A stretch of 64,000 bases of DNA from Ditylenchus dipsaci (lineage: Eukaryota; Nematoda; Chromadorea; Rhabditida; Anguinidae). The translations under genes and the position numbers were made by a program. Location of the stretch: NCBI GenBank assembly GCA_004194705.1, contig SADC01001217.1:372001-436000 (forward strand). The letters run 5' to 3'. Positions 9,160 to 64,000 of this stretch are shown here, piece after piece (the stretch's first letter is position 1; each line of letters opens with the position of its first letter). The notes beneath the pieces were generated by a model, which saw only the letters and a list, made by a program, of their open reading frames with translations, searched no databases and was not told the DNA's origin.

Positions 9160-9382
9160 ACTTTTTCAAAAAGCCTGTTCTTAAATCGAGGTTTTGCTTT
9201 TTGAGTAGTAAAATTATTTAGTTATTGAAAAACGATCGGCAAAATCGGAATCCTTGCGATATTTGCCATCCGACTGTCAAAAACAAAACTGGTAAAAAAT
9301 TTTAAAAATCGGACTAAAAAAAGTGTCGGACCCTAGGTGGGAACGAACTTTGTGGGGTGTCCTTAAATCGAGAGTGGACTGT
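9160..9382. mobile_element. CAGTCGA-type MITE remnant
   Basis: Right end CTTAAATCGAGAGTGGACTG then TA. The left side has CTTAAATCGAGGTTTTGC. The core CGGACCCTAGGTGGGAACG and CGATCGGCAAAATCGG is shared with 51507-51934 and 59175-59491. The outer left tip is missing. Confidence 0.65.
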
Positions 9383-48646: not shown

Positions 48647-51600
48647 TCAGCAACTTCTAGACAAACTATCATATTTTCTTTTCTCTAAGCATGGACACAG
48701 CAAATTCCTGACCAGATTTCGGAATTTCTGACCGAAAATGCCGAAGATCAGGATGTTAGTGGCACTGAATTTAGACAAATATATCCAATGTTTTAATCAC
48801 TTCTTAGTAAATTTTTTTACCTATTAAGACACACCAGCAAATTTCCAATTGGAATTCTGTAAGCGTTTCCAGGCACGTCCATGTCAAAAGCTTCGATAAC
48901 ATTGTTCATTCCAGCCAGCCAGTTAAACATCACAAAAGCTACTGTAAATTTTGATAATAAAAAAATTCAGTATCTGAAAATAGTAATTAGACTTACCGAT
49001 TGTGACTGTAGCCATTTTTGTGCATTTGCCGTCATAGTCTGCACTCTTGTCTTGATGATAACCATGCCCGCTGCCCCTATGACTTGAAATTATGCTGCCT
49101 CCATGCCTATATGTGCTGCTGCTTCCTGAATATAACAAATAAATTTTAAATATTTTTTTGTAACATCCTGATTCTTTTGAGTAGTATTTTTGCAGTAATC
49201 TACTTTTTTCGTTTCTTCAACAATTTTATCCCAACAACTGACGCAATTTGGCGAAATGTGTGCTGTATCGATACAGTTTGATAGTTCTTCAGTATACACC
49301 ACACCTCGATTTCGCTTTGATCCAATCTGCTACTTTTTAGCTCGTGCTTAGTCACGGCCAGCGTCAAACATATTTCATATCTAACAAAAAAAGATAAAAA
49401 CAGGGTTGAGTTCTTTTCTGTGCTTTAGCACAATTGAAAAGTAAAAGTTTAGGGTTTTTCCATAATCTTTGTTTGTTTTCAAGCAATGTCTTTAACAAAT
49501 GTGTCTGAAACTAACTCACTGTCATTAGTCACAGGTCCATTACAGCTGACTTTTTGCTCATGAGAAATGCCGCCCACAGACTCGGATGTGGTCAGCGCTA
49601 CCACAGTTCCACTCTGACTTGTCATGCTGTTGCCAGGAATGCTGATATTGCCGCCAGACTTTCTCTGTTGCAATTGTCTCATGTGCCTTCTGCGTACAGT
49701 GGCGTCCCTAACCGCATTAACCACAATCACATTTAACACAATAATCACCAGGAAGGGGATGACCAGCAACAGGAGTAGGTATCCATATGTGTTGTAGATT
49801 ATTATGTACAGTGGGTGGTTTCGAAGCTGGGTGGGTCGCAGTCTACCGCACTCGTCCAGGCTCAGCTCAAATATGGACGGCATTTTGCTACAAACTGAAT
49901 GATTAGCTAGACCCATCAGACTAGTGACTTACTAGAGTATGGCCACCACCCCAATGCAGTTGAGCACAGTTCTGGCCCTATGGCTGGTGCACCAGGCTCG
50001 GGTATGCAAAGGATATGTGACAGCTAGGAAGCGGTCGACAGTTATGGCTACACATGTCCACACACTTCCTGTTTGAGCCATCAGTGAAATAGGGTAAGTG
50101 GCCAAGGAAGTGCGCCAGAAAAAATGGCACACTGGCCCTTGGTGGCCCTGAAAAAATGTTGTTGAGTTAGAGTGTTTTGAAGGGTTGGGCTCAACTTTCT
50201 GATATCGCATCCTCACAAATAAGAGTTGTAACCATTTTTAGAGCTTTAAAGGTCGTCTTTATGTTATGAAAGATGTTCTTAGGAGTTCAAAGACTTTTTT
50301 ATTTTTTTTGACCGATTTGAGTGATTTATGTCTGAGGTATGGCGTGTCTCATGTCTCGACTCCAAGCTTCCCATCCCCCTCCGATCTTCGCAGACTTTAG
50401 ACGGGCCACAAGCTATCTCAATGCATTAAATATAACCAAAACAGTATACCAAGCATTTAGCTCAGTCCCCAAAGACAATATCAAATATTTTGGTTAATTT
50501 TTTTTTCAAAAAAGTGTTTTCCCAATCCTGAAAACTCGTTTTCAATCCTTATTAAGTTTTAAAAACTCTAAAAGTTGTCAAAAGTTTTTTTCGAGAGTAC
50601 GCAGTATAGGACAGTCCTGTCGATTTCGTGTTTTTTCAAACTAAACATGTTATTTTTCCTTTTTACCCTAATACTAAAACAAGAAAAAAATCACAAGCAT
50701 GCCTTTCCAGGCTTTTAAAACATGTGTTCATGACTACTTCATTTTGTTTCCTGTTAGCTTGTTTTCTATGTTGTTGCTGTCTATAATTTTAAGCAGGATG
50801 AGCATCAAATAAATTAAACAGAATGGAAGCAAAAGTGCATAACTACTACTTTTACTACTAGTGGTAGTCAAATTAATGTACAAAATGATGTTTTTGGCAG
50901 GCTAATCTACACTTTTCTAAGATCCCACGCGGAAAACTTCTTAGCGGCTTACTATGAGTATGTCGACAAACTGTGGAAGTAATTTTTGAGTAAAAGCTCA
51001 AAATTTATTGCAAAAAATATACTAAAAGATTGAGTTTTCGAGCAAAAAGATTTGAGTGCAAAGAATGTTGAAAACTATGATAATTTGTCAAATTTCACGA
51101 ACTTTTCAGACATTTTAATACGAATTGTGTTTTATTTTATTTACTTCCTAGCGCAAAAATTCTTTTTGGAAATCATACAAAATAAGTTTTAAAATATCCT
51201 TTTCTATATTGCTAATTGGTAGTTTAGAGTTAAAAAAAAGAAATTTAATGTTCAGTGTTTCTAGGCTCAAAACACAATTTAGTGACTTTTGAGAAACACG
51301 ATTTAGGGTGATTAAATAATAAGAACAAACTTCTTCAAGGCACAAATTCATGGACGGGTAGATGATCAAAGACATTAACAATAGAACCTGAACCAATCAG
51401 TTATTAATAAAATGTGAGGGCGATAGTACTCTTTTGTCTAATAGTATGGTCTTTTGCGTAGTTTGAAAAACCCTTTTGAGTGCAGTCGAGTCTCGGTTTT
51501 ATGGTACACTCGAACCTCCCAATACTGTACACCCCAATAGTTCGTTCCCGCCTAGGGTCCGACACTTTTTCAACTCAATTTTCTAATTTTTTTGCTGATT

Positions 51601-52598
51601 CTGTTTTGACAGTCTGGCCGCAAATATCGTACAGTTTTTTTCGTAAGGTTTACAAGTCGTTTTTCATTTGCCTATATATTTTTTCTCTAAAAGGCAAAAC
51701 CTCCCAATAGCGTACACCATTTTGAAAATAAGACTACACTATTGGGAGGTTTTGCTTTTTTAGAGAAAAAACATATAGGCAAATGAAAAACGATCGGCAA
51801 AATCGGAATCCTTACGATATTTGCTACCAGACTGTCAAAAGACTTCCAGACTTTCAGAAAATTGAGATGAAAAAAATGTCGGACCCTATGCGGGAACAAA
51901 CTTTTGCGGTGTACACTATTGGGAGGTTCGACTGTACCATAAGGCTAATTTTCAACCTTGTTAAAATTTGTATTATAAACTTGGTTTTAAGGCGTTTTCT
52001 CGCAAGCCGCATTCCTCGTAAAAACGCATCGAACTGAAAAAATTAGTACGAAAAAATTCCTGATAATTTATGAAAAAACATAATCCAGAAACCGGGTACA
52101 AACCGGTTAAGCGACAGAAACGAAACTGAAAAACCGTAACCGAAGATCAGGTACCTTTCGAAAATCAAAAAAATTACCAAGTCAAAAAAAGAGAGACCCG
52201 CTAAGTAGATGCTCAAAGAGGAGCGCATCTGTTTCCTGGTGAACACTAGGATGCATATCGCAGCTCCCTGAAAGCACCCATAATTAGGCAACTTTTTCAA
52301 CCAATCCTTAAAAAACTCACCATGGATCCCAGAATACACACTATAGGCATCAACACTACATACACTATTCTAGTCAAATGGTCTGGACGGACCGCTGCTG
52401 AGGCCAATTTCTGCTGTTGGAACTGTTGAAGACAAATCAAGGCTATATCTCTGGCTGGGTGGTCATACTATGGCCTAATTTTTCCAAATTGGCTGAGGAA
52501 TGACTGGTAACATCGGAATTGGGACTAGAACTGTTAATACTAGAGCTTTTCTGGTGGGTTTGATTGCTAATCACACTTCCACTAGCCGTTGAAGCCAT
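48647..52598 (-). CDS. FMRFamide-type neuropeptide receptor, class A GPCR
   Basis: Exons on the minus strand: 52321 to at most 52598, 52178-52267, 51331-51387, 49933-50147, 49520-49887, 48997-49125, 48821-48941, 48647-48764. From TM1 onward all phases close. TM1 IVYVVLMPIVCILGSM, TM2 SSLSIYLAGLSFFDLVLLLM, TM3 with its Cys (VCHFFW), then TVDRFLAVTYPLHTRAWCTS, a DRF box and R-x-WCT signature typical of FMRFamide receptors; TM5 YLLLLLVIPFLVIIVLNV; a Ser/His-rich inner loop; TM6 VAFVMFNWLAGMNNVIEAF; TM7 SATNILIFGIFGQKFRN, ending LSRSC. Such receptors couple neuropeptides to G proteins in neurons and muscle. The N-terminus is Ser/Asn-rich; ATG at 52598 gives a good extracellular start, but its frame meets a stop before TM1, so a further small intron or other first exon is needed. 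A MITE sits in one intron. Confidence 0.85.
51507..51934. mobile_element. CAGTCGA-type MITE in receptor intron
   Basis: Tips CACTCGAACCTCCCAATA and TATTGGGAGGTTCGACTG with TA on each side. The word GTACACC/CCCAATAG is at both ends and twice inside. Core GGGTCCGACACTTTTTCAAC and CGATCGGCAAAATCGG is shared with 9160-9382 and 59175-59491. It sits inside a decayed older copy (CAGTCGAGTCTCGGTTTTAT at 51483). Confidence 0.85.
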
Positions 52599-53988
52599 AC
52601 TTAAAAGAATAAACATTTTTGGTGCAATGTGGTCGAGTTGAGCACTGGATGTTGCAGCAAATACAATCCTTTTCGCACCTAAATCATACCAGGCTCAGAT
52701 GAAAATAGTAAAGCAAGATTATTAAATAGTAGGACCTTATGTACTTGGGGATAGCGGGGCACCAATTTTTTCACCAAAAATTTGTTTATATTTTTACATA
52801 TTGATTTAATAATCTTGCTATTATAATAATCAAAACGATTCCGTTAACCGTCTATTAGTAATCATAGAAAATATGTTGATTAAGGTGATCGTGTTGATCA
52901 TGGTCAATATAATCACCATAATCAACTTGATCACTATTCAAAATTTTAAATTTTATAGTGAAAAAGTCGGTGGCCCACCGATTGGGGTTAGATCCTCACT
53001 CGAACTGAATATTTTGAATGAATTTTAACTGAAATTATTTAGTATTTAAACCCTAAAATGACGGTGCGGTAAAAGTTCTTTTGAAATGAGTAGGACTTTG
53101 CTGCACCCGTTAGTTTCTTTTGGAAGATGCTGAAGCCATATAAGTTTTCTCTTATCAAACGAGAAGGATAAAACTAATTGACAGTTGACAAAAGCAATTT
53201 GAAAAAAAAAAGAAACCTTTGGAGTAATATTAGCAGGAGTAGGGGATGAGCTTTTTGTGTAGAGCTCATGAGGCATAACCGTTGAAGCAGTAGTAGTAGG
53301 CAAAGATGAGGAATTTAAATGATGGATCATGTGATCTCTGGAATAATGGTCTTAGACTACCAAATAGTAATCTTGATGATGTATTTATATGTGTAGGGGC
53401 CTGCAAAGCGCCATTCAACTAAAGTCTATAATGTAAGCAATTAGATCCAAAAATAATTAGCAGATGAGCATTACTAGAAGCGAAAAGATCTAAAGCCCTC
53501 GGTAAAAGTCTAGAAAAAACGTTTCCAAAATAATCAAAATCTCAGAGTAGGATGAACACTAAACAATACTCTTTGGTCTAGCACTTTACTCTTTTCTGTT
53601 ATTTTCACAAATTAATAAGACAGAAAAAAGTGTAGTGTAGAACTTAGGACTAGAAATCACCACATAGCTCATCACTGTCCTGAGAAAAGATTCTATTGCT
53701 GAAAAATCTATGCACTAAAACACTGGGAAGCCAAACTTTTATGTAAAACCACGGTCTGTTACCAATTTGAAGTCGAGTATTACATCAAAATCGTTCCAAT
53801 TTTTTCAACTCAGTGAAAATTTACATGTATTTCACAACTAATAAAATTTTGGAAAGGATGATTCAAAAATAAAATAAAATATTTCTTGCTGCATCCTTAA
53901 GCTTTTTTATAATTGACAGAGCATCATTTTAAGCTAACCAAAAACACCTCCTTTTTACCAGAATTCAACAAAAAGCAGTGAATTAGAG
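52599..53988. other. Upstream of peptide receptor, no firm gene
   Basis: A minus-strand frame from 53330 (MIHHLNSSSLPTTTASTVMP) is Ser/Thr/Asn-rich with possible glycosylation sites and could be a receptor 5' exon, with a weak donor (AAG then GTTTCT). 52860-52930 has short inverted TGATCA-rich repeats. 53560-53640 has a small hairpin (TCTAGCACTTTACTCTTTTCT). Nothing else recognised. Confidence 0.35.
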
Positions 53989-53996
53989 CTTAAACT

Positions 53997-55190
53997 GGCT
54001 GTACCGAAAAAGGTAAAAAAATATTTGGTAAAAGGCACATTTGGTAAAAAAACTTTTTGGTAAAGGCACATTTGGTAAAATTTCTTTTGGTAAAGGCACA
54101 TGTAGTAAAGGTAAAGCACTTTTTCGGTGGACATTTTTGGGTGGTACACCTTTTGGTCATCGAGTTCTTGTTTTCGGCCATAGATTTTATTTAGGCGCAG
54201 AGTTGGCTGTTTTAGTCACGAAGATACCGTTTTTGGAGGGCATAGACGTTTCTCCAAACCATATAAAAGCACCTTATGCTCCCCGAACCCTGTTAAGCAC
54301 CTAGTGACCAGGACATCAATCGAGGTCCTCTACTCAGGACTGATTGCATCCAGAGGGGTTGGAACCAGAAACCTTGGTGATGAGTGTATGGACTTCTACA
54401 CCACACCAAACCAAGTGGACGACCACTTGGTTTGGTCACACTGAATGATGGGGTTGTTAGTAATTCTAAGGGTTGATTTAGGTCACTGGTTCGAATCCAC
54501 CTGAGCGCATACCTTTTTTACCATAATAAAAGATATAAAAGCGAGCGTTCGACTTTTCATGTCATTTGGGTGAATATGACCCTACTCTGGAGTTACCTTG
54601 ATATCAACCTGTCCAGGTAGTAGCCACCCCAGGTTCGGGGCTGAGTAGGTAAAATCGCACTTTTGGACTTAACAAACCCAATTCCTCGCACAATTTTAAG
54701 TTAGAAAAAATGGTTTATTTTTCGTACTCATTAAATTTTAATTTTGTAGGCCATCCAGGTGGACATCCACCTGACCAGGAGGTAACCACCACACGTTTTG
54801 GGGTTTGCGTGGGTGAAATATTGATTTTTTTTTATTAATTTTTATTTTTCACGTTTGGGTTTGGTATAGTTTTTCAATATGGGTGCCAGCGCATTTACAT
54901 CAGGATTGGGCCACCTGGGCACGGAGAGCTGATGAAGAACACTAATGGTATAACTACCAAGACTATAACCCCTATGAGTATAATTAAGAAAAATTTTACT
55001 GGGAGGATACTATAGAAACCAGGAGAAAGAAATGGAAAGAGAAGAAAAAGTTGGAATGAGAAGGTCTTTGACAAAAAAACAACTACAAAGTGCCTTACTA
55101 AAATAAATTTTACCAAATATGCTTTTACCAAAAGAAATTTTACCAAATGTGCCTTTTACCAAATATTTTTTTACCTTTTTCGGTACAGCC
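53997..55190. mobile_element. Word-arm foldback with perfect 8-bp TSD (CTTAAACT)
   Basis: CTTAAACT occurs at 53989-53996 and again at 55191-55198. Tips GGCTGTACCGAAAAAGGTAA and complement. The arms are four to five tandem copies of TTTGGTAAAAGGCACA, inverted at the other end (TTTTACCAAATGTGCC). The interior has the palindrome CCAAACCAAGTGGACGACC, a degenerate B box (CACTGGTTCGAATCCAC) and ATCCACCTGACCAGGAGG, components also found in the element at 9696-11023. No transposase. Confidence 0.85.
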
Positions 55191-55198
55191 CTTAAACT

Positions 55199-57624
55199 CT
55201 CATTTTCATTTGAAGGACTGGTTATTAACCGGATTTTTTTTCAATCTTTTATAATATAGCCCCAAACAAAAAAAGACTTCCTCTAATCTTATAAAAGAAA
55301 GAACTACAAAAATAGAGATGAAAAATAATAGACCGTGTATGAAAAGGGCACAAAACGTCTGTGCGTGCTTGGAAATGCATGTGTACCACTAACAAATTGG
55401 GTTTGGGGGCTTATTCATAAGGCTTTTCTCAATTCGTTTTTTGGCCGGCCCACTACTTATTAATTCGCCTATTCAACTACTAATTAACTAGAGCCAGTCT
55501 GCATAGTAGACAATGAATTTTTATGTAAGCCTTTTTGAGTGCTTTTTGGATTATATTTAAAGGGGCTCACATACAACCGAATTGTATTCTTCTTCTTTTG
55601 ATGAAATATATAAGGCTGCTAGAAAAGGGCATAAAAATTTGATAATCTTGTATAAAACTAGCTACAAAGGTCTCAAAGACTTTTGAAAAAAATGTCTAGG
55701 AATTTTAAGCAATAAGATATTTTCCAACATATTGTCAAGAATATTCGGCGCTAGTAGCGAATACCAACCCTACAATTAATAAAAAAAAATAAAATAAAAA
55801 AAAATAAAAAAATTTAAACCTATTTTTCGGTAAAGCGTCGTAAATTCGAAGACATTTTCAATACTTTTTTCAACAACAAAATACACGTTACACTCAAGCA
55901 AAAGATAAAGATCAAAGGATAACATTTACGCAAAGCAAATTTTCAATTTTAGAGAGACAATAGAAATGTCTACTATCTTCCTTTGCTCACTAAAGCACTA
56001 ATTAAAAAGGGTGAAATTAATAATTTCAAAAAGTTTTTTTGATAAACATTTAAAACAGAATCCACAGCCTATAATTTGGCTTAGGCTTGGCAAATGTCTT
56101 TTTTACCCTAGGACTAATTTATTGGAGGGAAGATTTGCCCAAGTTTATTATGATGAGGGACAGCGGGTGTGTTCCTTTTCTTCTCTTTCTTTTTTTGATG
56201 ATAATTACGCATTTCCCAACCTACTGAGACTGCCAGATACATACATACACTCGCGTGGCTTTTCCGCATACTAAATTAGGAGAAGCGGAAATAAAATAAC
56301 TAAATTAGTTGCGTGAAAAGTCAACAAATTTGTTGGCTGCTTAAAAAGCACAACCGAAATTTAAAAAAATACAAAAATCTCAAATTAATTGCCCGTATTG
56401 ACATGTAAACATTTGAAAAAAAAGCGCCGACCTAAGATGCTCAAGTTAAAAAAAGTTGAACACTGTACTTCCGTAGCCATAAGTGAAATATCTCAAAGCT
56501 CAGTCTACATTTTGAAAAGTGTTAAAGATATTTTTCGGACCTTTGCGACTAAAAACATAATTTATAGCGCAAGGTTAAACCGATTGGAATTCTGTAAAAC
56601 ATAGCTAACATAGCTTAAAATTATATCACTGTTTTAGCCCTTATTTTGGTAGATTTTTGACTTTCGTAAATTATAAGTAATTTTCTGTAACTTTGGGTCA
56701 GTTGATAATAACTTTTATTCGCTAGTGATCTCCATTCCCCAAAACCCTTGTGTCGTATACTCCTACTGCCTTCCATCTTAGAAAGGGGTAGTATTTTGGG
56801 TAGCGTTGCAAAAGTATTTTTGAAATATTCAAGTTAGCTCCCTGAGCTATGAGTTGTCGGAGGTGGTAGGGCAAAAAATGGATCTGTACTGTGTTATTAC
56901 GCTCGGTTCTTATCTTTTATGCACTATTCATATGATTTATTTGATCTTTTTAGATGTTTGACACTGTTTTCAATTTTCCAAACATCATTTTTGACATTCC
57001 CTTCAAACCCGTTTAAGAGCCATTAGAAGCGACTAAGTTGTTCGATAAAATATGATTATACAAAAATCAGCCTGTATAAATGAACTGTGAAAAATGTGAT
57101 TAGGCTTGTACGTGAAACAATGTTTTTGTGAAATTTAGCCGTGCAAAATTCAGTTTGAAATTTCCGCGAGTTTTAGCCACGGAATAATTGTAGCAGTTAC
57201 GGTCTTTTGAAAGCTGGAAGACTTCCGGTAGTGTCATAGAGGTTATATGACATTAGCGTGAAAACCCTTACTAGATCAACAAGGCCACTAGCTGGCTTGC
57301 ATGTACTTTCATTTAAATAGTGTGCTGCGGATTAGTTCAGTTAATGTTGTCCCTAGCCTACAATATTAAAATGAATCGCACTTAAAATATGAATTCTAAC
57401 CAAAAGCTAAGTGGAAATAAGTCACATCTAGACTAAATCACACATCAGCTAACAATTTTTTTTAACAATTTATTTGTTCATAATCATATAAATTGATCTC
57501 TTTGAACTTGCTGGCAAGAAACATTGATTTAATTTTAGCTGCGTTAAACTATAAAATACTTTTGAGAAGTTAATTACAAAAATGAAATTACTTAGATTAA
57601 AAATACACTTTAAAAAAACTTTAA
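55199..57624. other. Intergenic, nothing recognised
   Basis: AT-rich sequence without clear repeats. A frame at 56011-56274 (87 codons) has no family features, no signal peptide and no splice context, so it is not called. Confidence 0.4.
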
Positions 57625-57809
57625 AGGACCATGATTTTTGTGCGCAGTGGCATGACAAAATTTGAATTGGCGGGGGACACTTCTCTTTGGTCTCTCCCTG
57701 TACTCTTTGCAGTTATTTCGAACGACTGTAAAGAGTACAGTGAGAGACCAAAGAAAAGTGTCCCCTGCCAATTCAAATTTTTGTCATGCCACTGAAAAAT
57801 CATGGTCCT
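57625..57809. mobile_element. TTAA-flanked AGGACC-type MITE, compact copy
   Basis: TTAA at 57621-57624 and 57810-57813. Tips AGGACCATGATTTTTGTGCG and complement; the whole 185 bp is one hairpin with ACACTTCTCTTTGGTCTC near the middle. This is the cleanest member of the family. Confidence 0.85.
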
Positions 57810-59058
57810 TTAAAAATATGATTAGCAAAAATTCAAACCCTATTTATTGGGTTTTTATGGAAGTCAACTACATTCCGGCGATTCTGGGGTGCTGAAAATC
57901 ATAAAAAGTTGTTTCCTCTTTGTTATTAATTTTATAAAACAAATAAACAGTCTGAAACTAACACAAACAAAAGAGTAATAATAATAAATAAACGTTGAGA
58001 CAACGGAAATTCAAAATTAAAAATATCAACTAAAAATATTAATTATTTCAAAAACAAAGAACGAGAAATACTAATTGCACCACAACGAAATTAGGAATAA
58101 ACTACATTACGGTGGAACCAGAGCAGAACTCTGATAAACAAGAAATGGCCTACTGGTTTTAAATCCTATGAGCGGAATCTGATATTCGGAATTTAAAAAT
58201 AACAATTATTTTTTTCTTCCGCAAGTGAATTTTTTTGGCACAAATTTTGCCAAAAATATAAGGGACCGAGCAATCTAAATACTTTTAGGTGATGGTAAAT
58301 ATTTTCGAGCATATTTTTTTGCCAAAAGTTTGCCTTTTGCAACAAAAGCTTGCCTGCTTGACCAAGGTGACATTTCGGTACCAAAAACTTTTGGGCTATT
58401 ACAGTACAAATTTTAGGTGAAAATCTCAAAACAAGATAGACAAATGTGAAGCCATATTAATCTATTAGTGCAAATTATCCCTGTGATTTTTTCCGAAAGA
58501 AGTATTGTCGGCGCTACTAGCGAATAACACCAACCCTCACCCTCCTGGGAACCTGACTTTTCCAAAATCATCTATCCCCTATCCCACTATCCCTTGGATC
58601 AACAAGTTTAAGTTTAAGACTTAGACTCAGAGGTAGACCAGCGCATAGAAGTTGTGACTAATAAATGTCTTACGCACTTTTTATTGGGTCATAGACGTAT
58701 ATTTGGGTACTCTTCACTTTGTTTAAAAAATAAAAATCGTTGGGGAGGGGGGAATTTGTTAGCAGAATGTATTGTATGTTGAATAGTAAAATTTAAAGTG
58801 AAACATTGCCTGATCTTCATTTTACAAACCGAAAAGTAGTAGAGATGTCTGAATTGGAAATTTAAGACAGCAAAGAACGCTGAATTATGACGCAAAAAGA
58901 TGAGCTTAGTCTTTTTGAAGCTAGATCTTCCATCTCACAATTAATTATTCATTGGTCGTTAATATTGCTGAGGCAAATTATTGCTGGCAATTCTGCATTT
59001 GCAAGATTAACATTAAATGATGGGTGGATTGCTGAGAGCATATTATGTAAAACAAATA
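57810..59058. other. Intergenic with a dispersed repeat
   Basis: 58480-58710 is a reversed copy of the segment at 19720-19900 and 28740-28915 (AAGTTGTGACTAATAAATGT, TTACGCACTTTTTATTGGG). No gene recognised. Confidence 0.45.
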
Positions 59059-59174
59059 GTACGGCCGGTATACGACATTTCACCGCGGCGACATTTCACC
59101 GCCTACGACATTTTACCTCGGGAATTTCACCGCCTACGGCATTTCACCGCCGAATTTCATTTCTCTAGCCTATA

Positions 59175-59491
59175 CAGTCGACTATCGATTTAACATACAC
59201 CAAAAAGTTCGTTCCCGCCTAGGGTCTGAAACTGTTTTAAACTCACTTTTCGACATTTTTTACTTATTCTGTTTCGACGCTCTGGTCCCAAATATCGCAA
59301 GGATTCCGATTTTGCCGATCGTTTTTCAGAGTCATAAAATATTTACATCTAAAAAAGCAAAACCTCGATTTAACATACACCTGTTTTGGATTTAGGCGTA
59401 TGTTAAATCGAGGTTTTGCTTTTTTAGATGTAAATATTTTATGATTATTTATATTTATAAATCTATTATTTATAAATCGAGAGTCGACTGT
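59175..59491. mobile_element. CAGTCGA-type MITE nested in the foldback
   Basis: Tips CAGTCGACTATCGATTTAAC and complement with TA on each side; the word TTAACATACACC occurs at the ends and in the middle. Core GTTCGTTCCCGCCTAGGGTC shared with 9160-9382 and 51507-51934. Confidence 0.85.
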
Positions 59492-60080
59492 ATCTCTAGC
59501 CAATGGTCGAGATCTACCTTTAACGATTTTAATCAATTTTTTCATGGCCTTTCTGTACTTAATGGTCTCGATTCACCTTGAATGCTTCTTCATCAATGGC
59601 CAAAACTCAAAATTTAGTCTTCTATGGTCAAATCGAATATTACCCGAAAAGCTGCCTGTCCCTTCTGTCATGTGAGTCGCTGGTATGCCTCTTTGACGTG
59701 ATTATAATCACAGCCTTTTCACTTTATGCGGGCCATCGATTTTTTCTATCCTGGAGGGCCGGTTAACTGTGGGCACTAATGCCGCTGGAGTTGCCTCTAA
59801 TTGCTCTTGTTTCTCTGTTTTTTATCTGGGATTGTGCTTAGTTGCAGGGTAAGCGCAGGGTAATCACACGTTTTTTTATTACTTGAAACCAAGACGTATA
59901 AAAACGACTCGACCGCACTAGTGCCAACTGTAGTGTGCGACCAGCTTAAAATTACTTCCCTACACTGCCTAATCAGAAACATGACTTCATCAAACCCTTA
60001 GCTTTATTTCAACAACAACAGCAAAACAATCACATAGAAAGAAGGAACTGACCCTAAGGATTATATCTGATGGGAAGATT

Positions 60081-60584
60081 CTAGTCAGGCAATTCAGGAG
60101 GAGATGACACGCTGGAAATATAGACGTCACCACTATCTTCTGAAACGAAAGAAGTTAGACACCGATATCCAGAACATAATTAACTTCTGACCTGGAAGAA
60201 CAAGCGCTATCACCGCAGGCAAATGAGGCAAGGCATCACTTTCGGAGTCAAATCCAGCTTGTTGCAAAGTCCAACTGTCCTCCAACTTGGTCCAACGAGA
60301 TAGCTTCGAATTGCTTGGCTTTTTTAGTACCTGTTTTTCTGAACCGACCTGGAAACTCAATAATCCAATATAAAACACTAATAAATTTGAATAACAACAC
60401 CTTCAACACCCTTCGATCATCTTTTTCAAATCTGCGACCGTGGAAGTGCCGGATATTTGGACGAACAAGTGCGTGTTCTTTCTTATCACCTCGAAATACA
60501 ACTCCTAAAGAGGATTGTCATCGATTTTTAACCTAATAACCAAACCACGCATACCATTGCTTTTATCTGGCTTATCTGGCTCAT
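60081..60584 (-). CDS. elb-1: Elongin B homologue, inside a transposable element
   Basis: Exons 60555-60584, 60410-60504, 60192-60348, 60081-60139. Elongin B is a ubiquitin-like adaptor that pairs with elongin C in CUL2-type ubiquitin ligases. The product starts MSQISQIKAM, then the ubiquitin-like strand-helix ELYFEVIRKNTHLFVQISGT and VADLKKMIEG, then VLKKPSNSKLSRWTKLEDSW, TLQQAGFDSESDALPHLPAV and a tail SVSSPPELPD identical in its last six residues to the conserved SPPELPD end of the family. About 110 residues, normal length. An ATTTTAG acceptor abuts the ATG (spliced-leader site). Introns 1 and 3 close in phase; at intron 2 (GG/GTGTTG to CCAG/GTCGG) the phase is off by one, so a different splice site, a sequence error or a lesion is possible. 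It lies wholly between the arms of the foldback 59067-60891. Confidence 0.82.
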
Positions 60585-60891
60585 CTAAAATAGAGTGAAT
60601 AAATATTGATCTAACACTGAGCGAGAAGACGAAAAAGATTATTTAACCACAATTCATTAATTACCACCGATAAACCGCCACTTTGATAAACTGGCACACC
60701 TGGGACCAACCTTGGTGCCGGTTTTATCTAGGGTTGACTGTACAAGAGACATTTAAAATTCGGCGGTGAAATGTCGTAGGTGGTGAAATTCCCGCGGTGA
60801 AATGTCGCGGCGGTGAAATGACTCGCGGTGAAATGGGCCGCGGTGAAATGTCTCGCGGTGAAATGTCGCCGCGGTGAAATGTCCCATCCCC

Positions 60892-61241
60892 GTACGGCCT
60901 CTAATAGATTATTAAATTAATAATAAGATCCAAATCTCTAGATTACTGAAGATTCCACAGTTAAAACATGATTTTATAAAAAAGAATAAACCTGAATTAA
61001 AAAAGCCGTACCGGGAATATTTTCCAGCTCAAAAAAGGCCGGTACTAGGATATTAAAAAAACACCGACACATCATGGTAAAAACCTCGAGAGAGAATCAA
61101 ACCAACGACCTATTTTGACCGAAATTAGCTGTTCTACAACTCAACTACAGAAGCCTGTTCACCAGTTGTTAGTTGTTTATGGAAGGGATCTTTATAAAGC
61201 CAATACTTCAAGAGCCTTTTTTAAATACCGCATTATTTATA
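60892..61241. other. Spacer, no gene
   Basis: Short AT-rich gap between two elements, with a loose repeat AAAAAGCCGTACCGGGAAT / AAAAGGCCGGTACTAGG at 60998-61042. Nothing else seen. Confidence 0.4.
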
Positions 61242-61824
61242 TTGGGTTTGTCCATAAGTTCGAGGTTGTTTATAAGCAACTCAAAAAGTTTCTGCATGGG
61301 TTTCACACCTTTTGACTAATACAAGCTATTAAAAATTGACAGATGGGTTCCACAATCAGAATTTGATGGTATACGGAGATTTAGCGGTTGGCGGGACAAA
61401 TGTCCCAAAACCACTAAACGTCACACCAAAACGCCAAGCTTTTTTTAGATGTTTTTTAGGCTTAGGCTTTAGGCTTAGGCTTTAAGCTTAGTACAGAAAA
61501 AACATCCGAACATCCTCAAAGTAATGATAAAAAAAGCTTGGCGTTTTGGTGTGACGTTAAGGGGTTTTTGGACATTTGCCCGCCAACCGCTAAACGTCTA
61601 CGCACCGAATTTGATTCGTATAATCAGAAGAATTTTTTTTGATAAGTTTCAAAATTGAAATTTGGAAACCCATCAAAAAAAATTCTTGTGATTTTACTAA
61701 AGAAATTTCGATTGTGGAACCCATCTGTCAATTTTCAATGGCTTGTATTAGTTAAAAGGTGTGAAACTCGTGCAGTAACCTTACGAGTTAGTATAACCAG
61801 CCGCGAACTTATGGGACAACCCAA
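61242..61824. mobile_element. Mariner-type foldback, TTGGGTTTGTCCATAAGTTC tips
   Basis: TA at 61240-61241 and 61825-61826. Tips TTGGGTTTGTCCATAAGTTC and GAACTTATGGGACAACCCAA. Long arms fold back near 61480 (AACCGCTAAACGT, AAAACGCCAAGCTTTTTT). Mariner-family elements often have such TTGGGTTG tips. No transposase. Confidence 0.75.
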
Positions 61825-64000
61825 TAATAGAGGGCATGCCCGATTATTATAATGGTACACGGTATATGCATTCAGATATCGAATAAACTTTGTCATAAAA
61901 AATGAGCTCAAAGTTTTGTTGGGAATTTAAATTCTCAGCCAATCCTTAAAATGCTTTCAAAACGTTGAGCCCAAAATTTTCAAATCACAAAACCACTCAT
62001 ATCATTCTTAAATGAGAGATCACTAGTAAAAAAACTGTTTGGAAAATTGAACTTTCACCTTGTAACATTTTTAACGGCTCAATGAGATCTTTAAAAAAAT
62101 TCTAAGTTTAAGTTGGAGTGCTATTTAAAAGGCATGAAGTTAGTGGTAGCATGGTTGGCTTAACTTGATGCATTGGGCAGAGTGGAAGTTTTTTAATGGA
62201 GTGAAAAGCTGTGTTTTCCATTCAGCTTGCACTTTTATATGGAACAGCCTTTTTGACATCTTCCAAAAACATCATTATCAGACCTACCAGGCCCCACTTT
62301 CAAAACAATTGCTTATAATGTAAAAGCAGTCGGATGATTAAATTGAAACACAAAAACAAGCGCTAATAAAAATGTTTTTTGTAACAGCATAGTTTTTATA
62401 GCTATTTTGGGACAGGATCTTGTTTTTAATATTTTTAATAGAAAAAACACGAAAAAGGGAAAAAAAGAATTGTCATAAAAAAAAAATCCGACGCCACATA
62501 GACTTCTTACCCGCTCTTCTTAACCAAACCCTCCCCTTAAAAAAACTAGTGTTATATAATCCGCCTCAGGTGCTAATAATAATTAACCATAGTGGCCAAT
62601 TGTGAGGTAAATAGAATATTTTGACCGGGGCAATTTTGCTGTGCCATTAACTGTGAGGTTTAGCTCTAAAAAAATTAAAAAAGGCTATATGTTGAAATAA
62701 TAAAATATTTTGCCTAATTTTGGGGTGAAATCCAACAGCTAAAACGCCCGGAACGAAATGGCACAGCCCTTTCGATCCAGGAAAAATTTCTCAGCCTCCA
62801 TAGTGAAATTTTTTATTTCAAGGCGTGTTATATACCCTCTCACAGTAATTTTAAAAGTGTTTTAAACCGCCATATTAAAAAATATATATACAGAAACACT
62901 TGTTAGTAATGGCCGGCCCTGAGGCTAGGCCAGAGTTTAAGTAAAAATTATTGGGGCCTGAGTAAAAATTATTAACTTTTTAAGGGCAGTGTTCAGCATA
63001 TCGCACTAGCGCCAAAAACCAAATCCAAAAAAGTCGACTCTGTTACTAAAATTTTATCCCAAAACAAGTATCAAAAATTAGTTTTAATAAGTTCTAAGCC
63101 GAAAACAAATTAAACATGCCAGCAATTAAAAAGTATCCGATGCTACTAAAAACGTCCAACACTAATCTTGCTTATAATCGTTTTCTATAATTTGTGCTAT
63201 CTTAAAACTCAAAATAGGCAGCCGTCCGAAATAAAAGTAATTATGCGCAGCAGTCCGGCCAACTTTTCACGGAAAACAACATCAAAACAAAAGCAGGAAG
63301 GAAGCTGTCTTTTGGCCAGCAGGCAATTTAGCCTGCGCCCCCAAAGCAGTGGGTAATCAAATTGTTTTTTTAAGAGCGGAAATTTGCAGCTATTATTTGG
63401 CAAACACCTTATTTACAGTTAAAGTCTGGGCTTTGGTTTATTAATTTGTAATTAATACTCACTTTGTTAATTACCAAAAAATTGTATTTTTATGAACCCT
63501 AATTTCCTGAGCAAAAAAATTATTTGCGATGGATTTCCGCTGGATCGAATGTATGAACAGTAGTGTTTAAGTGATTATTGTTATTTTTGGTGACTTTGGG
63601 ATTAGTGGATTTTGTTAGTTCTCTGCAAGACCTCTTTTGCAAGTAAAAAAAGTTATACAGTCAAAACACGGTTAACCGCCATCACAGTTAACCGCCCCAA
63701 ATCTCTATATAGTATTCGGTATGTGTGGTTGGGTCGCCCTTTTTTGTGTTTAAGTTCAAATCTTTGCCATTTTTCACAATACTTTATCAGATATCTCACT
63801 GGAACCCTCAGGTAAAACATCTTAGCTATTACTATAAGTGTTCTATCTGATCCGACGAAAGTTTTCTGTGTGTAACTTTCAAAAGTAGGATAAGGTGGTA
63901 TGCGCTGGTATGCCCTTTAAATTAGAGATGGTGGATATTAGCCTGGATTCAGGGTGAATTTTCGTGTTCAAACCTAATTTTAGTACTTTTTCGCAAGCCT
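61825..64000. other. Intergenic to window end, no gene recognised
   Basis: AT-rich. A lone CAGTCGA-type tip (ACAGTCAAAACACGGTTAAC, word GTTAACCGCC twice) lies at 63658-63700 without a partner. Frames of 60-67 codons show no family features. Confidence 0.4.

Follow-up and report, generated by a model that had tools for sequence, protein, structure and literature searches.

An elongin-B-like gene copy, very probably captured and now dead, in a foldback Mutator-like element of the nematode Ditylenchus dipsaci

Mutator-like elements (MULEs) generate target-site duplications (TSDs) of 8–11 bp (PMC6446971), and their capture of genes is well described in plants, with few animal cases found. In Tm1, a Mutator/Foldback family of root-knot nematodes, composite foldback arms are built from tandem units of approximately 14 bp and their terminal motifs are asymmetric, TSDs of 8–10 bp (mostly 9) are present in 45 of 53, larger members contain a MULE transposase, and non-autonomous members, which the authors liken to Pack-MULEs, carry a histone-hairpin motif (PMC3169594). 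Plant Pack-MULEs are non-autonomous MULEs that carry host gene sequence in place of a transposase, the captured pieces usually being non-functional (PMC6446971, PMC13317346). Kaonashi-type plant MULEs are non-TIR elements, and members of that family encode a Ulp1-type protease domain (PMC13317346). Turmoil-1 of Caenorhabditis elegans is a DNA transposon that has captured coding exons along with an intron; it belongs to Harbinger, usually has 3-bp TSDs and bears its gene fragments within the inverted repeats (PMC2572040).

Here we analyse a 64,000-nt stretch of the D. dipsaci genome (the window; contig C1188, positions 372001–436000) that holds an elongin-B-like gene between inverted arms. The unit is very probably a Pack-MULE-like nematode element: a non-autonomous, foldback-shaped MULE that carries a transduplicated elongin-B-like gene, now dead. 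Its family resembles Tm1 in the composite foldback arms of tandem units, the asymmetric tips and the MULE transposase of larger members; judged by eye, the terminal motifs and unit printed for Tm1 are not those of the D. dipsaci tips, the TSDs of Tm1 are mostly 9 bp whereas those of the D. dipsaci family are 8 bp, Tm1-A combines FLYWCH with MULE whereas the D. dipsaci family combines MULE with Ulp1 fragments, and the cargo of the window element is a copy of a multi-exon protein gene rather than a histone-hairpin motif. Unlike plant Pack-MULEs, the window element has an animal host, foldback arms and no high-identity donor that we could find; unlike Turmoil-1, it is a MULE with four exons between its arms. 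With Kaonashi-type elements the D. dipsaci family, made up of long-arm nematode elements, has in common members with a Ulp1-type protease domain.

The window element was unreported in the literature that we searched on nematode MULEs, Pack-MULEs, transduplication, elongin B capture and D. dipsaci transposable elements (subscription papers lay outside the scope), and the available portions of PMC10015627 and PMC13359780 contain no report of it. Within that literature, a nematode foldback MULE family that has Ulp1-bearing members, as some plant MULEs do, and that carries and has spread a near-complete, four-exon copy of a host-type gene is new. With precise TSDs, several copies and an intact gene elsewhere in the genome, the family offers a tractable system for the acquisition and amplification of host DNA by animal MULEs.

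The unit, its arms and its family

The stretch between the two TSDs (Table 1) is a single mobile unit. The 8-bp sequence GTACGGCC occurs in exact copies that directly adjoin both edges, confirming the perfect duplication described in an earlier, sequence-only reading of this DNA. The inverted arms are composed of approximately 15–16-bp CGACATTTCACCGC-type units, with arm pairs matching over 61 bp at 87% and over 36 bp at 92%, and have asymmetric tips, GGTATACGACATTTC on the left and GGGGATGGGACATTTC (reverse-complemented) on the right. Long inverted arms of tandem short repeats are the hallmark of foldback elements, and the dispersal of the arm family in the genome shows that the repeated words that had been read as arms are not a product of chance. 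The left part of the element also contains a nested palindromic MITE of 316 bp (59175–59490), overlooked in that reading, which recurs at 33 further places in the genome (our own count; best matches 91–95%). Because the corresponding site is uninterrupted in the copies on C48, C706 and C1172, the MITE is evidently a later insertion into the window element.

Table 1 Features of the element and its cargo (window positions)
Feature	Position	Strand	Basis
Left 8-bp TSD, GTACGGCC	59059..59066	.	exact repeat
Non-autonomous MULE/foldback element with elongin-B-like cargo	59067..60891	.	TSD, arms, dispersed copies
Left arm, tip GGTATACGACATTTC..., tandem CGACATTTCACCGC-type units	59067..59153, inner edge approximate	+	inverted repeats, arm family
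Nested MITE with TA duplications (59173-59174, 59491-59492)	59173..59492	.	uninterrupted site in C48, C706, C1172
Exon 4, ...SSPPELPD then TAG	60081..60139	-	
Exon 3	60192..60348	-	
Exon 2, 104 nt, one base short of frame	60401..60504	-	
Exon 1, ends in start codon ATG (ATG|GT, like intact gene)	60555..60584	-	
Candidate trans-splice acceptor CACTCTATTTTAG, upstream of exon 1	60585..60597	-	sequence only
Right arm, outer tip (reverse complement) GGGGATGGGACATTTC..., tandem units	60756..60891, inner edge approximate	-	inverted repeats
Right 8-bp TSD, GTACGGCC	60892..60899	.	exact repeat

The assembly that we searched comprises 226,978,389 bases in 1359 contigs; a published D. dipsaci assembly is given as 227.2 Mb with 55.7% repeats (PMC11118728). 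Used as a genome query, the left arm yielded at least 80 matches on at least 28 contigs, that of the window included (40 of 97 candidates scored), and the right arm at least 59 (40 of 140 scored). We read 18 arm-bound elements at both ends, a non-random choice made up of places with arm matches on both sides and of the elongin-bearing copies. Scripted comparison revealed a perfect 8-bp TSD beside intact tips in 11 of the 18 (window, C48, C398, C1328, C883, C1247, C1250, C238, C1156, C351 and C1169). Four more had a repeat of at least 8 bp and an altered tip, found by script in C32 and by eye in C364, C84 and C706, the left tip of the last being truncated; for these three, counted by eye, the script found no exact 8-bp repeat, nor did it for C955, C675 and C186, in which no TSD was seen. 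C955 has two right-type ends.

A match to MULE transposase lies between the arms in at least 11 of the 18 elements (C883, C1156, C364, C1247, C32, C398, C238, C351, C1169, C1328 and C675), and a fragment from inside arm-bound C883 matched the Pfam MULE family at 2e-9. Because 8-bp TSDs, within the 8–11-bp range of the superfamily, accompany MULE-transposase matches between the same arms, we assign the arm family on sequence grounds to Mutator-like foldback elements, with the window element as a non-autonomous member. Peptidase_C48 (Ulp1 family) matches in Pfam were obtained from inside arm-bound copies on C1125 (3e-10, 5e-8), C883 (1e-9), C32 (2e-7) and C1250 (2e-5); a Ulp1-looking piece of C186 gave neither a Pfam C48 match nor any other meaningful one. 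The arm-bound loci with Ulp1 fragments include L055, L057, L058 and L060; in L057 the Ulp1 fragment is downstream of the MULE domain. No intact autonomous element was read from one end to the other and no intact full transposase was encountered; many of the transposase matches contain stops. No gene was recognised by eye as further cargo in the portions read of C84, C186, C562 and C419. The window element at C1188 had no MULE-transposase match among the matches listed. The sequence-only reading, which had proposed a foldback element without its own transposase, was right to that extent; the element is no orphan and belongs to a MULE family of which this genome also contains Ulp1-bearing members.

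Parts of the interior of the window element recur beside arms at C48, C706, C955, C1172, C164 and C741, and elongin-B-like exons lie within arms at three of these places (C48, C706 and C955). The window copy keeps all four exons. In C706 one insertion interrupts exon 3 and another exon 4; in C48, exon 4 and the end of exon 3 are missing and the rest of exon 3 contains a stop; in C955 the gene breaks off where exon 3 begins; and C164 keeps only the exon-1 region of the cargo. The stretches read of C1172 and C741 share other interior with the window and contain no elongin-B-like exons. We considered C741 as a pre-capture element and set it aside: the stretch read lacks the left end as well as the gene, and is indistinguishable from a deletion. 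Two observations on the C706 copy (L034) are that the insertion in exon 3, between 5846 and 6266, is bounded by GGCTAGGTGAAAA ends and accompanied by the 8-bp repeat CTCATTTG, and that at 9278–9342 the right arm with its flank is duplicated in inverted orientation approximately 1.8 kb away.

The TSD of the C48 copy is GCTAATTG, and the 3-kb flanks on either side of the window element had no match to the examined flanks of C48, C706, C955, C1172 and C164; these copies and that of the window are therefore independent insertions. That the whole unit moved as one, put forward earlier as a condition, is thus borne out by its own TSD and by the same arms and interior elsewhere with other TSDs and unrelated flanks. 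These observations already contradict the view that this is the native elongin B locus into which two arms inserted separately and later, a view suggested by the intron-bearing gene with its candidate trans-splice acceptor: a single TSD surrounds the entire unit, its arms and interior recur elsewhere with other TSDs, and an intact gene lies on C57, leaving the native-locus view scarcely credible. An assembly artefact or segmental duplication might be suspected in a repeat-rich genome in 1359 contigs, and is hardly tenable given that a genome search with the near flanks (267 and 309 bases) returned no place other than their own and that the 3-kb flanks match none of the examined flanks of the five other copies. 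A search of this assembly for the empty site with a single GTACGGCC, a check proposed earlier, gave none: the joined flanks matched only the two flanks of the window element itself in a search that skips common words.

The cargo and its reading frame

The four-exon elongin-B-like gene that had been reported between the arms was recovered on the minus strand, with introns of 50, 52 and 52 bases. Its protein, an approximate 96-residue query made by an approximate join of the exons, matched elongin B chains in the PDB (E 5e-13, residues 4–96 of the query), similarity being seen both in the ubiquitin-like part and in the C-terminal PPELPD stretch. Pfam returned no family above cut-off for the cargo, so its identity rests on the PDB match and the alignment; Rfam gave nothing at gathering score within 50000–64000. 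DNA homology of exon 4 to an elongin-B-like piece on C146 ceases at approximately 60086, and the protein encoded on C57 continues past the matching stretch. A candidate spliced-leader-type acceptor, ...CTATTTTAG, ending at 60585, is recognised by resemblance in sequence. A D. dipsaci protein in UniProt matches the cargo query at 98% identity across 69% of the query. The public gene model P0001 (A0A915DNF3), which matches window positions 60081–60740, takes exon 2 in a frame other than the homologous one. We read P0001 as a transposon-borne pseudogene annotated as a protein, a warning that some public gene models here are probably of this kind.

The one-base phase problem noticed earlier at intron 2 is real and is located in exon 2, which, next to the donor of intron 2, has one base fewer than its counterpart in C706. 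Exon 2 is likewise one base short in C48 and C955, and has an in-frame length in C706. With the homologous acceptor TTTCCAG, which resembles the consensus, the cargo falls out of frame, and its frame is open only with weaker sites: 45 of 4371 GT/GC-AG splice chains (intron 1 fixed) are open while keeping the end of exon 2 and the core of exon 3. Their donors lie upstream of the homologous site by 7 or 9 bases, and ATTATTGAG is an example of their acceptors. Because these chains use weaker sites, rescue of the frame by alternative splicing is unlikely, and the window gene copy looks dead.

Comparison of the four armed copies revealed fewer variable columns in exons (14 of 232) than in non-coding sequence (50 of 278; Fisher p 4e-5) or in introns alone (16 of 102; p 0.007). 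The distinct exon changes among these copies comprise 7 replacement (one of them a stop) and 5 silent changes by our own count, with the last codons of exon 2 left out, and three of the four copies have frameshifts, so protein-level constraint after amplification does not appear clear. Between the window and C146, a gap-free 125-nt stretch of exon 3 contains 8 synonymous and 4 replacement differences (dN 0.043, dS 0.37; Fisher p 6e-4 with rounded site counts); the line that connects the two was under constraint in this stretch, as would be expected if both were snapshots of a then-working gene. Counter to this, exon 2 of C146 and the window, in an alignment that runs over a frame gap, is identical at 79 of 103 positions, no better than the introns (37/49, 35/49 and 35/49).

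These data also bear on whether the cargo might be a functional, expressed second elongin B, an elongin-B-like E3 adaptor subunit whose frame is kept by an unusual splice. The open splice chains, the lower variability of exon columns and the dN and dS values of exon 3 speak for such a role; the frame broken by the homologous acceptor, the replacement changes and frameshifts, the exon-2 comparison, the different exon-2 frame of P0001 and the intact gene on C57 speak against it. A functional role of the cargo is not supported, and we consider it quite improbable.

Origin of the cargo

The intact elongin B gene on C57 (L041, C57:124161–131440) has an ATG|GT first intron, four exons and no stop in the matches, with exon 2 at 131394–131287 and exons 3 and 4 a further 6.8 kb on; it corresponds at 99% identity to P0004, another D. 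dipsaci protein of UniProt. The 9.9 kb of C57 examined with the element query contain no arm match. Its second intron, of 6.8 kb, appears by eye to have a GC donor instead of GT. The C57 protein and the cargo have the same exon layout and approximately 50% identical residues (52 of 105). A genome protein search with C57 elongin B returned 10 matches (three on C57, two on C706, two in the window and one each on C48, C955 and C146), and no second intact elongin B locus was seen in the genome searches.

The search for an elongin B locus without arms, suggested earlier, thus led to an intact one, and the question whether the window holds the working gene or a captured copy is answered in favour of the copy, with its frame broken and an intact gene on C57. 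The earlier proposal that an essential elongin B had been captured with its introns stands as regards an intron-bearing elongin-B-like copy; it does not stand as regards the working gene, from which the frame-broken cargo differs at about half of the residues.

Among the MULE matches listed, the window element combines the lack of a transposase with host gene sequence between MULE ends, as in Pack-MULEs. A further mark of Pack-MULEs, as we take it, is a parental gene that lies outside MULE ends and matches at high DNA identity; none was found in the genome, where the best candidates are the C57 gene (50% protein identity) and C146 (80% DNA identity, frame-broken). Because of this we call the element Pack-MULE-like, and capture from a gene is inferred rather than traced. 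In an elongin B tree the captured copies and C146 form one group (support 100), and the surrounding nodes have support of at most 40, so that neither an origin within the D. dipsaci lineage nor a horizontal one is shown. A Ditylenchus destructor protein named elongin-B (P0020) is 47% identical to that of D. dipsaci, on a long branch; the Aphelenchus avenae protein is 61% identical.

Arm-less elongin-B-like pieces occur at C146, C202, C925, C1189, C32, C44 and C283, and approximately 97-bp pieces of exon 3 without arms at C1298, C623, C1295, C1169 and C13. One repeat is common to C202, C925, C1189 and C32, and another to C1298, C623, C1295, C13 and C1169 (L039, L040, L042, L043, L046–L050). Since arm-less pieces are found in other repeat groups, the cargo could have entered the MULE within another repeat; on this account the elongin-B-like piece was already part of an older repeat when that repeat inserted into the MULE, and has travelled with the MULE since. 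The block common to the window and C146 (60086–60564) ends at about the gene edges, which argues against it, and we regard such an arrival as unlikely.

Under the preferred reading, a non-autonomous MULE with a transduplicated gene, the transposase of a relative would act in trans on the arms, and the unit would have been pasted with an 8-bp staggered cut. All three introns are retained, from which it follows that DNA and not an mRNA copy was taken. The cargo may have been acquired once, through faulty repair or template switching between the arms, from a diverged elongin B copy now lost or unassembled, and then have been passively amplified while it decayed.

We give little credence to a further account, in which the cargo would go back to a second elongin-B-like gene, formerly functional and long under protein-level selection, which spent some of that period as a mobile gene in MULEs whose larger relatives encode a Ulp1-class protease, and which has now decayed in this copy. 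If it were true, a transposon family would once have carried its own ubiquitin-like E3 adaptor subunit.

Elsewhere in the window, at 49932–52369 on the minus strand, open reading frames resemble by eye the exons of a seven-transmembrane (peptide GPCR-type) receptor.
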